The notes beneath the pieces were generated by a model that worked only from the letters and a program-made list of their open reading frames with translations, ran no database searches and was not told the origin of the DNA. Made by a program: the position numbers and the translations under genes. A DNA stretch of 64,000 nt from positions 1 through 64,000 of the forward strand of contig NZ_VTDM01000017.1 in the NCBI RefSeq assembly GCF_015627105.1, written 5' to 3'. This document shows, one piece after another, positions 1 to 13,681 of the stretch. Origin of the DNA: Acinetobacter baretiae (lineage in GTDB: Bacteria > Pseudomonadota > Gammaproteobacteria > Pseudomonadales > Moraxellaceae). Within the stretch, counting starts at the first letter, position 1; every line of letters begins with the position of its first letter.

Positions 1-3000
1 TAAGCTTTGCAGGTGACAGCGGTACAGATGTTGCTCGTAAACTCGGTGATACCCTCAATATTAAAGGTGGTGCAGACAGCACAAAACTCACCGACAACAA
101 CATTGGCGTGGTTGCCAACGGTACAGATGGTCTTGAGGTTAAACTTGCCAAAGATCTGAACCTTGGCAAAGACGGTAGCGTCACAGCAGGTAATACTGCG
201 TTGAGCAATAATGGCTTAACGATAAATAATGGTCCAAGCATTACGACATCTGGTATTAATGCTGCAGGTACTAAAGTGACGAATGTTGCTGATGGTACTG
301 ATACTCAAGATGCCGTGAATAAAGGTCAATTAAATAATCTAGAATCTGAAGTTAATAATAAATTTAACGATCTTTCAACTAAGGGCAGTTCAACACAGGA
401 TACTTCAGGGAATAGCTCGAGTACTACAGCATCTGGAACAACAGTTGCAGATAAAGATGGTAATACAAATACCTCTACATCTACAGGTAATACTGTTGCT
501 GGTAAAGATGGTAATAGCACGACAACGACCGCTGATGGAACAACAAGCAAAGACAAAGATGGCAATAGTACAACCACAACAGCTGGTGGTAGCACTACTC
601 AAGATCAAAACGGTAATAGCAATACCTCAACTGCAACCAATAATTCGCTTGCTGACAAAGACGGTAATAGTAATACCTCAACTGCGACAAGTAATACACT
701 TGCTGGTAAAGATGGTAATAGCACGACAACGACCGCCGATGGTACGACCGTTAAAGACAAAAATGGGAATAGTAATACATCGACAGCGACAAGCAATACG
801 CTCACAGATGGTAAAAATACGACCACAACTACAGCATCTGGTACAACCTATGGCAGTGCAGATCCATCTGATAAAACCAGCACGAATATTGGTCAAAATG
901 GTCTAAGCTTTACAGATACCTCTGGCAATAAAACAGGTCCAAGTGTGACAGCATCAGGGATTGATGCTGGTAATGAAAAAATTACCAATGTTGCAGATGG
1001 TGCGGTGGGCCCAACATCTAAAGATGCAGTAAATGGTAGTCAGCTTTATACAGCAACAACAGACTTAACAAATAAGGGTCTGAATTTTGCAGATAGTAAT
1101 GGCACGGTAACGCATAAAAACTTAGGTGAAACATTAACAATTAAAGGGACAGGTGCAAAATCTGATGATCAGTACAATACTGATAATCTAAAAACAACCA
1201 CAGATAGTAATGGCAATATTGTGGTTGGGCTAGATAAAAATGCAAGTTTTAACAGCTTAAATGTAGCTGGAACGACTGTAAATGCTACTGGCTTAACCAT
1301 AAACAATGGGCCAAGTATTACAACGTCGGGTATTAATGCCGCAGGAACGAAAGTAACTAATATTGCTGATGGTACTGACACTCAAGATGCTGTAAATAAA
1401 GGTCAACTCAATACATTACAATCAGAAATGAACAGTAAATTTGACAATCTGTCTACGCAAGGAAGTTCAACACAGGATACTTCAGGGAATAGTTCGAGTA
1501 CCACAGCATCTGGAACAACAGTTGCAGATAAAAATGGTAATAGTAATATCTCTACATCTACAGGTAATACCGTTGCTGGCAAAGATGGCAATAGTACGAC
1601 AACAACTGCTGACGGAACAATAAGCAAAGACAAAGATGGCAATAGTACAACCACAACAGCTGGTGGTACCACTACTCAAGATCAAAACGGTAATAGCAAT
1701 AGCTCAACTGCGACAAGTAATACACTTGCTGGCAAAGATGGCAATAGCACGACAACAACTGCTGACGGAACAATAAGCAAAGACAAAGATGGTAATAGTA
1801 CAACCACAACAGCTAGTGGTAGCACTACCCAAGATCAAAACGGTAATAGCAATACATCAACTGCGACAAGTAATACACTTGCTGGTAAAGATGGTAATAG
1901 TACGACAACGACTGCTGATGGAACAATAAGCAAAGACAAAGATGGTAATAGTACAACCACAACAGCTAGTGGTAGCACTACCCAAGATCAAAACGGTAAT
2001 AGCAATACTTCAACTGCAACAAGCAATACACTTGCTGGTAAAGATGGTAATAGCACGACAACGACCGCCGATGGTACGACCGTTAAAGACAAAAATGGGA
2101 ATAGTAATACATCGACAGCAACAAGCAATACGCTTACAGATGGTAAAAATACGACCACAACTACAGCATCTGGTACAACCTATGGCAGTGCAGATCCATC
2201 TGATAAAACCAGCACGAATATTGGTCAAAATGGTCTAAGTTTTACAGATACCTCTGGCAATAAAACAGGTCCAAGTGTGACAGCATCAGGTATTGATGCT
2301 GGTAATGAAAAAATTACCAATGTTGCAGATGGTGCGGTGGGCCCAACATCTAAAGATGCAGTAAATGGTAGCCAGCTTTATACAGCAACAACAGACTTAA
2401 CAAATAAGGGTCTGAATTTTGCAGATAGTAATGGCACGGTAACGCATAAAAACTTAGGTGAAACATTAACAATTAAAGGGACAGGTGCAAAATCTGATGA
2501 TCAGTACAATACTGATAATCTAAAAACAACCACAGATAGTAATGGCAACATTGTGGTTGGATTAGATAGAAATGCAAGTTTCGATAGTCTTGCCCTAGGT
2601 GGAACAACATTAAATTCTAGTGGCTTAACCATAAACAATGGTCCAAGCATTACAGCATCAGGTATTAATGCCGCAGGAACGAAAGTGACCAATCTTGCAA
2701 ATGGTACAGATGCCCAAGATGCGGTGAACAAAGGACAATTGGATGCCTTAGCAACGAACATTAGCAATAATGTAACCAATGTCACAGATGGTAATGGAAA
2801 TAAAGTTAATGTAAGTAATGAGGTTGTTAACAGTACACCAAATAGCAGTAATACAGACTCAGTATTCTTAACCTATGACAAAACAGGACAAGAAACAACA
2901 GATCGTTTAACGATTGGTCAAACTGTGCAAAAAATGAATACCGAAGGGGTCAAATACTCACATACTAATGGTAGTACAGAGGTTGTAGATGGTAGAACAA

Positions 3001-4970
3001 ATGACTCGAGTGCAGGAGGTACAAACTCGACTGCAATTGGTGTAAATTCGATTATCGATTCGGGTGCAGATAACACAATTGCTTTAGGTAAGAGTACATC
3101 TGCCTCTGGAGTAGCAACAAACTCCGTTGTTATTGGTAACAAGTCGAGTGTCACAGGTGCTTCTTCTGTTGCCATTGGTGATGGTGCTTTGGCTTCGGGT
3201 ACTCAATCTATTAGTGTGGGTACAGGAAACCAAGTCAAAGGTAACCATTCTGGTGCATTTGGTGACCCAAGTACAATTACAGGCAATGAAAGCTATGTAC
3301 TTGGTAATAACAATACAGTAAGCACAGATAATACATTTGTTGTTGGTAACAATGTACAAGCAACGACAACAGGATCCGTTGTTTTAGGCAATAATTCTGC
3401 TGCTCGCACAGGTGCAAATGTGAGTGGTTATGTACCAACGGGTGCAACAAGTGCTAATCAATCTGCAATTAATGCAACCACATCAACCACAGGTGCAATC
3501 GCAGTTGGTGATGCACAAAATAATGTGTATCGTCAAATTACGGGCGTTGCGGCAGGAACAGCAAATAGCGATGCAGTGAATGTTGCACAGTTAAAAGCGG
3601 TCGATGACAAAATACTTGCTTTAAAAACTGAAGGAAACACAGTTAGTGATTCTTCTGGCAATACAAATGTGAGTAACGCAACAGGAAATATCGTATCTGG
3701 TAATACCAATAATGGTGGTACAACCAGTTCAAATACCACTGCTGCAGGTATAGTCGTGACGGAGAAAGATGCAAATGGCAATACGACAAATGCAAACTAT
3801 GGGGCAAATGATGCCAAATATACAAATGCAGATGGCTCAAGTACAACTGTTGGAGGTAATGGTGTTAGCTTTGCAGATCAAAGTGGTAACAAGACAGGTC
3901 CAAGTATCACTGCTTCAGGCTTAGATGCAGGCAATCAGAAAGTCACAAATGTTGCTGATGGTACGGTGAGTTCAACCTCTAAAGATGCTGTCAATGGAAG
4001 TCAATTGTATTCTGTACAAAACCAGTTAGATTCTTTGAAAACTTCTGGAAATAATGTCACTGACACTGCAGGTAACAATAATCAATCGACTGCAACAGGT
4101 AATACTGTTAAAGATGCGTCAGGGAATACAAACCAAGCAACAGCAACATCAAATACACTCAGCGGTAAAGATGCATCTGGAAATGCAGTGAGCTCTGCAA
4201 CAACAGCATCAGGAACAACAGTGACGACCAAAGACAGCTCAGGTAACGCCATTAACAATGCCAATTATTCATCGACTCAAGCAAGCTTGTCAGATGCGAA
4301 AGGAAATTCTGCAACCACAACAGCAACAGGAACCACGTATACAGGTGCAGATAAAACAAGCTCAACGGTTAATAATAATGGTTTAAGCTTTAAAGATGCT
4401 TCTGGAACAGCAACAGGTCCAAGTGTAACAGCGTCAGGAATCGATGCAGGGAATCAGAAAGTGACAAATGTTACAAATGGTGCTGTGAGTTCAACTTCTA
4501 AAGATGCTGTGAATGGTTCACAAGTATATGCTGCAAATGCTTCGGTTGCGGCGGCACTAGGTGGCAGTGCGGCGGTAAATGCAGATGGAACAGTGTCTAG
4601 TCCAAGCTATAAAGTGGCGAATAGTAGTTACAATAACGTGGGTGAGGCATTAACAGCTGTGGATAACCGTGTTGGAAATGTGGAAAACAATTTAAACCAA
4701 GCATTTACCTACACCAATAATCGAATTAACAAACTTGAAGATAAATTATCTTCAGGGATTGCTGCCGCAGCTGCTTTAGAGCAAGCACCATTTGTTGCAG
4801 GTAAATGGACGTATGCAGCAGGTGCTTCTTATTACAATAACCAAGGTGCAATTGGTGCGACACTACGTCGTACAGCAGACAATGGCCGTTGGTCTATGAC
4901 AGGTGGTGTAGCAGGTGGTACAAACGGTTCTCCGCTCGTCCGCGTAGGTGTCTCAGGTGTGATTGACTAA
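1..4970 (+). CDS. ata: Trimeric autotransporter adhesin (Ata/AtaA/YadA class), 5' end outside window
   Basis: The reading frame is open from base 3, so the gene starts upstream; the first in-window start-like codon (GTG at 108) is internal. From there about 1620 residues are visible. They comprise two stalk blocks rich in Thr/Ser/Asn/Gly with a 17-residue period, neck-like stretches with DAVNGSQL or DAVNKGQL motifs, and a YadA-type head of AIG/VIG/AIGDGA turns at about 3000-3400. A neck ([17 protein letters not shown]) lies near 3540, followed by more degenerate stalk and a C-terminal anchor at about 4670-4967. The anchor has a coiled coil then four beta strands, including [20 protein letters not shown]. 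Such proteins form homotrimers on the outer membrane and mediate adhesion to surfaces, matrix or cells. The partner gene tpgA lies directly downstream. Cysteine-free and highly polar composition fits a surface fibre. Confidence 0.95.
700..1246 (+). repeat. Long direct repeat, copy A (partner about 2032-2578)
   Basis: About 545 bp here recurs 1332 bp downstream (444 codons) with only scattered substitutions. It covers the end of one 17-residue block, a [19 protein letters not shown] segment, a DAVNGSQL neck and the [15 protein letters not shown] segment. Residue differences are minimal (for example DKNASF against DRNASF). Confidence 0.85.
1572..2030 (+). repeat. 153-bp tandem repeat, three full copies, inside the adhesin stalk
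   Basis: Copies begin at 1572, 1725 and 1878, and a fourth partial copy starts at 2031. Each 153-bp unit encodes three 17-residue subrepeats whose common core is DGNSxTxTA. Neighbouring copies differ at few bases, which indicates recent duplication or gene conversion. Confidence 0.9.
2032..2578 (+). repeat. Long direct repeat, copy B (partner about 700-1246)
   Basis: Second copy of the stalk/neck module, offset by 1332 bp from copy A. The larger spacing than the module length is explained by the extra 153-bp tandem units that precede this copy. Confidence 0.85.
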
Positions 4971-4988
4971 GTTATCGATTAGACAAAA

Positions 4989-5021
4989 TGAGATCGTTTA
5001 ACTCCATGCTAAACGATCTCA
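4989..5021 (+). terminator. 12-bp perfect hairpin between adhesin gene and tpgA
   Basis: TGAGATCGTTTA (4989-5000) pairs with TAAACGATCTCA (5010-5021) around a 9-nt loop. It begins 18 bases after the adhesin stop codon. The following T-rich stretch is interrupted (GTTTTCATCATTT), so it looks like a leaky terminator or mRNA-stabilising stem, not a full stop. It also argues against translation starting at the in-frame ATG at 4988, which lies in the stem. Confidence 0.75.
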
Positions 5022-5056
5022 CATCATGTTTTCATCATTTCAAGAGTATAAAACAA

Positions 5057-5866
5057 ATGAAAAAAATAATATCTACGTTATGCATGAGCACGGCACTGAC
5101 CTTAGGTGTGTTATCAATGTCGGTCAATGCACATGAAGTCAATACAACAGCCAATTCTGATATTCAATTTCCTGATGTAAAAGACAGCTATTTAAAACAA
5201 GTCCCACGTTATGAGTATGGAACCATTGCGAACTTATCTACAGGCTTAACCAAAGATCAGTATCGTCACCTATTGGGTAATCCTCAATTTAGTGAAGGTC
5301 TACTGTTTGTACACACATGGAACTATGTTTTAGATATTCGTATCCCGAATACACAACAATATAAACGTTGCCAATTACGTATAGATTTTGACAAACATTA
5401 CATAGGTGAGCATTTGTATTGGAAGGGTGAAGAATGTCAGGGCTTACTAGATTGGGGGGTAAATAACCGTCCTGTTGTTATTCCTGCACCGATACCCGTT
5501 AAATCAATGGCGAGTACGGCTTATGTCTTATTTGCATTTGATCGTGCAGATAAAGCCGCAATTATTTCTAATCAACACTCAATTGCAACCATTGCCAAAG
5601 ACATTAAAGACAGTCAAAGTCAAAGCGTTACCGTCACAGGTTATACCGATGCGACAGGCTCTTATAGTTATAATCATAAACTTTCACAAGCTCGTGCAAA
5701 AACAGTTGAGCAACAGTTGATTGATGCAGGTATACCTGCACAAAATATTCGGATTATTGCGGCAAATAAAACCCAACAATTTGAGCACTGTAAAGGTGAA
5801 CAACGTACTGTGACCAAGCGTTCATGTGAGTCTCCAAACCGCCGTGTTGTGGTCGATTGGAAATAA
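5057..5866 (+). CDS. tpgA: TpgA-like periplasmic partner of the trimeric autotransporter (BamE-like plus OmpA domains)
   Basis: 269 residues from the ATG at 5057, which begins a clear signal peptide ([20 protein letters not shown], cleavage after VNA). The frame is open back to 4988, but that start would bury the signal peptide and lies in a hairpin. A SmpA/OmlA (BamE)-like region follows at about residues 30-150 ([19 protein letters not shown]). An OmpA-family peptidoglycan-binding domain follows at about 170-269, with the diaminopimelate-binding pattern TGYTDATGS and SQARA. TpgA of Acinetobacter sp. Tol 5 has this architecture and is known to form a complex with its adhesin and peptidoglycan. 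Position directly behind the adhesin supports the same role here. Four cysteines in the mature protein could form disulfides. Confidence 0.85.
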
Positions 5867-12658: not shown

Positions 12659-13681
12659 CTAACTCATTGTATTTGATATTGAATTGATTTCTATACTGCT
12701 ATGAACAATTTGATGATATTTTGAAATTAACAACTTAATATATTGTGGATTAATTTGTGAATGATCCGTTTCAACTGCAATAATACAGGCATACTTTTGT
12801 GCACCGACCTGCCACAAATGTAGATCACTAATGATCAAATCATGCTTTTGTAGTTCTTGCATTACTTGTGCGGTTAAAGGGGTATCCATTTCTGCATCGA
12901 GTAGCGTTTTTGAAGTTTGTTTCAGTAATCCCCATGACCATATCGCAACAATGATCGCACCGACCACGCCAAGAATTGAATCTAGAGCATCCCATCCTAA
13001 ATATTTACCTGCAAAAAGTGCAATAATTGCAAAAACAGAGGTCGCAGCATCAGCAATAATATGTACAAAGGCTGCTTTTTGATTTAAATCTTCGTGACCG
13101 TGACCGTGACCGTGACCGTGACCGTGACCGTGACCGTGACCGTGACCGTGACCGTGACCGTGACCGTGACCGTGACCGTGACCGTGACCGTGACCGTGAC
13201 CGTGACCGTCATGGTGTGAATCTTTGAGTAACCACGCACAAATTAAATTTACGACAAGACCAATGATTGCAATAATAATGGCATCATTATATTGAATCAT
13301 AACAGGATTAAATAAACGCTCTATTGAACTAAAAGCCATTAGTAAAGCAACGATCATTAAAATAATAGCACTGCTGTATGCAGCTAAGATTTCAATTTTC
13401 CACGAACCAAAACAAAATCGAGGATCATTGGCATAGTATTTTGCAGCTCTATAGGCAAAATATGCTAAACCTAGTGCCACCATATGAGAACTCATATGCC
13501 AGCCATCTGCCAAAAGAGCCATTGAATTAAAAAAAATACCCGTCATAATTTCAACCACCATCATCAATCCCGTAAAGATTGTGGCGATCAATATTTTTCG
13601 TTGACCCAATGGATTGCCATGATCAAATATATGCTGATGTTGTGTTGGTCTTGATATGGTGGTAAATGAAGATTTGTTCAT
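12659..13681 (-). CDS. dmeF: CDF-family Co(II)/Ni(II) efflux transporter, DmeF-like, with 19 Gly-His repeats
   Basis: 340 residues with six predicted membrane spans. It exports divalent metal from the cytoplasm by proton antiport. DmeF-type features seen: N-terminal HQHIFDHGNPLGQRK, the transmembrane 2 metal site in LLADGWHMSSHM, the transmembrane 5 site in HIIADAATSVFAI, and a histidine-rich cytoplasmic loop between spans 4 and 5. That loop is a perfect run of 19 Gly-His dipeptides. A short C-terminal cytoplasmic domain follows. The gene is divergent from an RcnR-like repressor and has its operator 19-39 bp before its start, so it is almost certainly induced by the metal that this repressor senses. 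Zinc cannot be excluded as substrate. Confidence 0.9.
   Translation of the reverse strand: MNKSSFTTISRPTQHQHIFDHGNPLGQRKILIATIFTGLMMVVEIMTGIFFNSMALLADGWHMSSHMVALGLAYFAYRAAKYYANDPRFCFGSWKIEILAAYSSAIILMIVALLMAFSSIERLFNPVMIQYNDAIIIAIIGLVVNLICAWLLKDSHHDGHGHGHGHGHGHGHGHGHGHGHGHGHGHGHGHGHGHGHEDLNQKAAFVHIIADAATSVFAIIALFAGKYLGWDALDSILGVVGAIIVAIWSWGLLKQTSKTLLDAEMDTPLTAQVMQELQKHDLIISDLHLWQVGAQKYACIIAVETDHSQINPQYIKLLISKYHQIVHSSIEINSISNTMS
13094..13207 (-). repeat. Hexanucleotide microsatellite, 19 perfect copies (Gly-His codons)
   Basis: GTGACC on the plus strand (GGTCAC on the coding strand) is repeated 19 times without a mismatch, encoding (Gly-His)19 in the metal-binding loop of the CDF transporter. 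The unit length keeps the frame, so copy-number change would alter loop length only. Confidence 0.97.

Follow-up and report, generated by a model that had tools for sequence, protein, structure and literature searches.

The adhesin gene and its repeat blocks

The window (the whole 64,000-nt stretch of DNA that was analysed) opens inside the gene of an adhesin, a trimeric autotransporter of the AtaA-like type. Its reading frame (frame 3, + strand) is already open where the contig begins and continues for 1655 codons without a stop (nt 3-4970), giving the C-terminal 1655 residues of the protein; all adhesin features described below lie on this strand. A YadA-like head, akin to the N-terminal head of AtaA, is encoded at 2745-3620 (residues 915-1206; match to 3wp8, 1.3e-90), and a membrane anchor at 4656-4967 (residues 1552-1655; match to 9vnj, the AtaA transmembrane domain, 1.5e-34). 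The NCBIfam model auto_Ata matched at 9.6e-115, which is under the model's own cut-off. With a C-terminal anchor homologous to those of known members, and with head, necks and stalk segments present, the protein is a type Vc autotransporter. It is followed by tpgA (4988-5866, + strand; NF047726, 361.5 bits for a cut-off of 350; OmpA and BamE domains), the partner that ties the adhesin to the peptidoglycan. AtaA of Acinetobacter sp. Tol 5 (PMC3498257) belongs to the same family, with a closely related head and anchor, a TpgA partner and few coiled coils in the stalk; its repeats are 58-243 residues long (PMC3498257), and 17-residue arrays in AtaA were not described in the literature examined.

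The adhesin gene is split by the assembly, and contig C59 of the same genome probably carries the missing N-terminal half: it encodes the N terminus of an adhesin, including an extended signal peptide, and it ends in the module type that opens the window (1-100). Among named species, Acinetobacter pollinis and A. nectaris are the closest, and the host is therefore probably a flower- or bee-associated Acinetobacter. Elsewhere in the window, a cation-efflux-like transporter gene (12659-13681, - strand) holds 19.5 perfect hexanucleotide copies at 13093-13209, which encode a Gly-His run.

Two blocks of 17-residue units precede the head, and with the unit start defined as the G of (D/N)GN their limits could be set exactly. 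Block 1 (408-812) consists of seven exact units starting at residues 136, 153, 170, 187, 204, 221 and 238 (nt 408-764), followed by a shortened eighth unit from nt 765; block 2 (1485-2144) consists of twelve, starting at residues 495, 512 and so on to 682 (nt 1485-2096), followed by a shortened thirteenth from nt 2097. The residue identity at lag 17 was 0.49 in block 1 and 0.46 in block 2, far above the highest values reached at any lag in 2000 shuffles (0.31 and 0.27, respectively). The preliminary description had reported two such blocks with seven and twelve full units, and both the period and the counts hold. In block 2 the units are further organized in a three-unit super-repeat of 153 bp, with a DNA identity of 0.85 at lag 153 vs 0.58 at lag 51, which was also detected by TRF. 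Behind the head, a unit search revealed a divergent array of the same unit (about 4068-4440), part of which could be modelled with confidence, while a degenerate and weakly related beta region, recognized in the sequence, lies between the head and the last neck (3651-3900).

Composition and predicted fold of the unit

Thr, Gly, Asn and Ser are abundant in both blocks, and V, I, L, M, F, Y and W together account for 3.9% of the residues in block 1 and 4.6% in block 2, in agreement with the earlier remark that these repeats have almost no hydrophobic residues. When 106 distinct units from the adhesin and related proteins were compared, the consensus was G-N-S-x-x-x-T-A-x-G-T-x-V-x-D-x-x, with Ala at position 8 in 72% of the units, Gly at position 10 in 67% and Asp at position 15 in 75%; the rule used to find the units itself fixed or restricted G1 and N2. 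The hydrophobic fraction was 0.78 at position 13 and 0.38 at position 6, the other positions being mostly polar. Blocks 1 and 2 are the most hydrophilic extreme of this range (an example from a related array is GNETVLTATGTQVKDGEGNEAEYGAKGISLKDQD), and position 13 lacks a hydrophobic residue in two thirds of the units within the repeating part of block 2.

This grammar bears on whether the unit could be one coil of a left-handed parallel beta-roll, comparable to the YadA head repeat but with 17 residues and, like BpaC, a hydrophilic core. In BpaC, the C-terminal head is a roll of this kind, with Thr and Asn in its core and a super-repeat of three layers (PMC9543794), and the arrays share with it the tandem repeats, the setting in a trimeric adhesin, a Thr/Asn-type composition and, in block 2, a three-unit super-repeat; two short strands and two glycines per unit would also suit such a coil. 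The BpaC repeat, however, has 14 residues and an invariant Gly 8, and YadA-like rolls have periods of 14-15, whereas the period here is 17 and the position equivalent to Gly 8 is mostly Thr (54%). Since the model of the divergent array, described below, also matches antiparallel sheets, we regard a parallel roll as improbable.

Structure predictions were performed on monomers with AlphaFold2. For the divergent array (nt 4023-4532) the model shows antiparallel strands, two per unit, at unit positions of about 3-7 and 10-14, with a pLDDT of about 86-93 over residues 51-130; the overall value was 69.5 in one of five runs and 43-55 in the others, with 7 aligned rows. For block 1 the prediction had no confidence (mean pLDDT 42.8, pTM 0.21, 5 aligned rows). 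No helix was predicted in either array. An ordinary coiled-coil stalk could be suspected, given that a short coiled-coil segment precedes the blocks and that YadA_stalk matches eight stretches of the protein (7e-54); the best of these matches (residues 326-368) lies outside both blocks, and the arrays are rich in Thr, Gly, Asn and Ser, with under 5% hydrophobic residues and without a heptad-like pattern. On composition and structure prediction, this reading was rejected, and its probability is close to nil.

The divergent-array model was then compared with known structures. With VIA-align it resembled OspA (Z 10.4) and the CPAP G-box (Z 10.3, rmsd 2.2, 80 aligned), both of which we take to be single-layer antiparallel sheets, as well as the phage spikes of phiKZ (6orj; Z 10.0, rmsd 4.2, 83 aligned), PhiTE (9cuy; Z 8.6, rmsd 3.7, 78 aligned) and phi92 (3pqh; Z 8.3, rmsd 2.2, 59 aligned). 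In Foldseek no match of the model passed an E value of 0.001 and the top matches were not trimeric fibres; against viral models most matches were unrelated sheets, and phi92 gp138 ranked 13th. The adhesin GIN domain was absent from the list of similar structures, which leaves room for a likeness to it. When the hairpin register was examined by covariation, unit subfamilies probably dominated the signal.

The main rival to a folded array is that blocks 1 and 2 are flexible, mostly unfolded spacers, even if their more hydrophobic relatives fold. It draws on the scarcity of hydrophobic residues (under 5%), on the pLDDT of 43 for block 1 and on the many block 2 units that lack a hydrophobic position 13. 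Against it, the 17-residue phase is strict and insertions and deletions comprise whole units, Gly at position 10 and Val or Leu at position 13 recur, the close sister array behind the head is predicted to be folded, and at least one adhesin domain is known to fold around Thr and Asn (PMC9543794). Nor does a poor pLDDT carry much weight for a Thr-rich repeat when five rows are aligned. Taken together, we consider unfolded spacers unlikely, though less so than a parallel roll.

Insertion site and kinship with injection-system spikes

In BadA, the GIN domain (3d9x) forms a beta-prism whose meanders lie transverse to the fibre, and it ends in G-I-N/D ahead of the neck (PMC2483945), and GID is a listed variant of GIN (PMC7688925). 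Both repeat blocks are closed by such a motif (as defined in PMC7688925 and PMC2483945): module 1 ends with GPS...GIDAG and the neck DAVNGSQL at 936-1052, and module 2 ends in the same way at 2268-2384, 1332 nt further on, the downstream flanks of the two modules being 99% identical. Ahead of the arrays the picture is different. In relatives such as the L017 adhesin the first GIN hairpin is retained before the array, whereas the arrays of blocks 1 and 2 directly follow a coiled-coil segment, with neither a Trp-ring nor the first hairpin before them; of the GIN element these blocks keep just the GPS...GIDAG end and the neck.

Many relatives have, ahead of the neck, a short hairpin and then GPS and GIN or GID, with 15 residues from the start of the hairpin to GPS. 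Where 17-mers are present, this span measures 55, 72, 89, 106, 123 or 395 residues, all of which are 4 modulo 17; the exceptions are two spans of 105 residues (one short) and one of 176 (off by two). Arrays in other genera of the family occupy the equivalent site. Because the spans mostly grow in steps of 17 at this site, the 17-mers appear to be an expansion of the known transverse beta element. The blocks themselves vary in the same manner: compared with block 1, homologous blocks in the window, in A. pollinis (L042) and in A. nectaris (L043) differ by +85, +34, 0 and -85 residues, each a multiple of 17. The repeat arrays may thus serve as an adjustable spacer, with a unit number that differs between relatives. 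The likeness to the GIN of BadA and to its GID variants lies in the position of the 17-mers at that place in relatives; GIN, however, has five strands per chain and is non-repetitive, while the arrays would have a hydrophilic core and add as many as 13 hairpins, and in relatives even more.

A profile of the 17-mers was also searched against 398 genomes of the phylum. Outside its own genome it matched three baseplate-spike proteins, two of them confirmed by Phage_base_V (Pfam), and one unrelated repeat protein. The spike matches scored 28-43 bits, vs at most 12.1 for 6000 shuffles and 59 unit-permuted profiles, and hhalign of the 17-mer set with the spikes gave a probability of 89.5% (E 2e-6). 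A long open frame with short D-G-S-rich repeats (NADGSGSW...; L049, G265:C503), apparently unrelated to the adhesins, was set aside as a relative of the 17-mers.

The 17-residue unit is also contained in the solved injection-system spikes 7aef and 7b5h, and the entries 7aef, 7b5h and 8kea hold three chains each. A profile search of the PDB returned four weak matches, among which only 7aef_q was sensible and none was a solved adhesin. The label of 7aef chain q, phosphoserine phosphatase SerB, looks wrong, as its sequence matches injection-system spike proteins.

By profile, the spikes (phi92 gp138, phiKZ, Algoriphagus 7aef, Anabaena 7b5h) share with the arrays a 17-residue D-x-x-G-N hairpin unit, with a similar predicted strand order. 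In the few spike units available, the hydrophobic residues tend to fall at positions 4, 6, 11 and 13, which from the sequence would be one face of the hairpin; in the adhesin units position 13 stays hydrophobic, while 4, 6 and 11 become Thr, Ser or Asn. Unlike the adhesin arrays, the spikes have hydrophobic core positions, only few units and an OB domain (Phage_base_V), which was found in the spike proteins and not in the adhesin. Spikes pierce membranes, whereas the arrays would act as spacers, and a likeness seen in sequence and model fits descent and convergence alike.

A proposed length-adjustable beta-prism and the spread of the arrays

Taking into consideration the predicted strands, the insertion site and the kinship with spikes, we favour, with a probability of about 0.6, a model in which each unit is a hairpin across the fibre axis, the three chains form a long beta-prism with a Thr/Ser/Asn-rich core, and the unit number sets the length. 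In this model positions of about 3-7 would form strand A and those of about 10-14 strand B of a two-stranded beta-hairpin, joined by a tight turn at 8-9, and a D-x-x-G-N turn would lead from each hairpin to the next unit, so that consecutive units build an antiparallel meander with its strands transverse to the axis. The three chains would each supply a side of a triangular prism, and positions 4, 6, 11 and 13 would point into it; in the adhesin these would be mostly Thr, Ser and Asn, often with Val, Leu or Ile at 13. The array would then be an expansion of the transverse beta element found ahead of the neck of GIN-type modules, and we infer a mechanical role as a stiff rod between two coiled-coil or neck segments. 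If the strands stack at 4.7-4.8 A, the rise per unit would be about 0.9-1.0 nm; the length, and with it the reach of adhesion, may shift by whole units through recombination or slippage between the 51-bp repeats.

The proposal in the preliminary description of a beta-type trimeric fibre rather than a coiled coil thus gains support from the strands of the divergent array, the insertion into the transverse GIN-to-neck element and the kinship with solved trimeric spikes. Its further suggestion of a different fold is probably too strong, since the arrays resemble an elongated form of a known class, the transverse beta-prism or beta spike; its alternative, a flexible spacer, keeps some probability for the two most hydrophilic blocks. 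We put forward more tentatively that the arrays form a long, length-adjustable trimeric beta-prism with a nearly all-hydrophilic core, a stalk architecture undescribed in adhesins, and that it uses the hairpin unit of contractile-injection spikes, by descent or strong convergence.

The profile matched 28 of the 175 Acinetobacter species genomes searched, and a sample of 199 genomes of the family gave matches in 17, spread over three genera; no adhesin-type 17-mer array was seen outside the family in the 398-genome sample of the phylum. Several further repeat loci were noted. G000:C33:40000-45962 encodes another truncated adhesin, 1155 residues long, in which the 17-mer array is more varied, and a 7452-codon open frame at G051:C2:128125-138951 contains many near-identical 594-bp (198-residue) repeats with a weak match to the 17-mer block. 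Plasmid NZ_CP113935.1 (2572-2772) of Acinetobacter sp. ESL0695, from the stingless bee Melipona lateralis, has four places related to the array.

With the 17-mers as query, neither Pfam nor PHROGs yielded a convincing match, and no Pfam model fits. The papers found on GIN, Trp-ring, FGG, HANS, neck and beta-roll modules contain no 17-residue array, although the unit may have been named earlier in domain dictionaries; we regard the array as a variation on known beta modules rather than a wholly new kind. Periscope proteins are defined as monomeric, with near-identical tandem domains of varying number (PMC9704523); repeat number varies here too, but the restriction to monomers excludes these adhesins. 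The same review states that trimeric adhesins lack tandem repeat domains (PMC9704523).

In the usual picture, trimeric adhesin stalks are coiled coils with inserted beta connectors. Here it is the beta element that is repeated, probably as a rod whose length changes by whole units, built from a unit that is common to phage and injection-system spikes. These arrays offer a simple means to measure the evolution of adhesin reach, and a test of the minimum hydrophobic core that a trimeric beta fibre requires.
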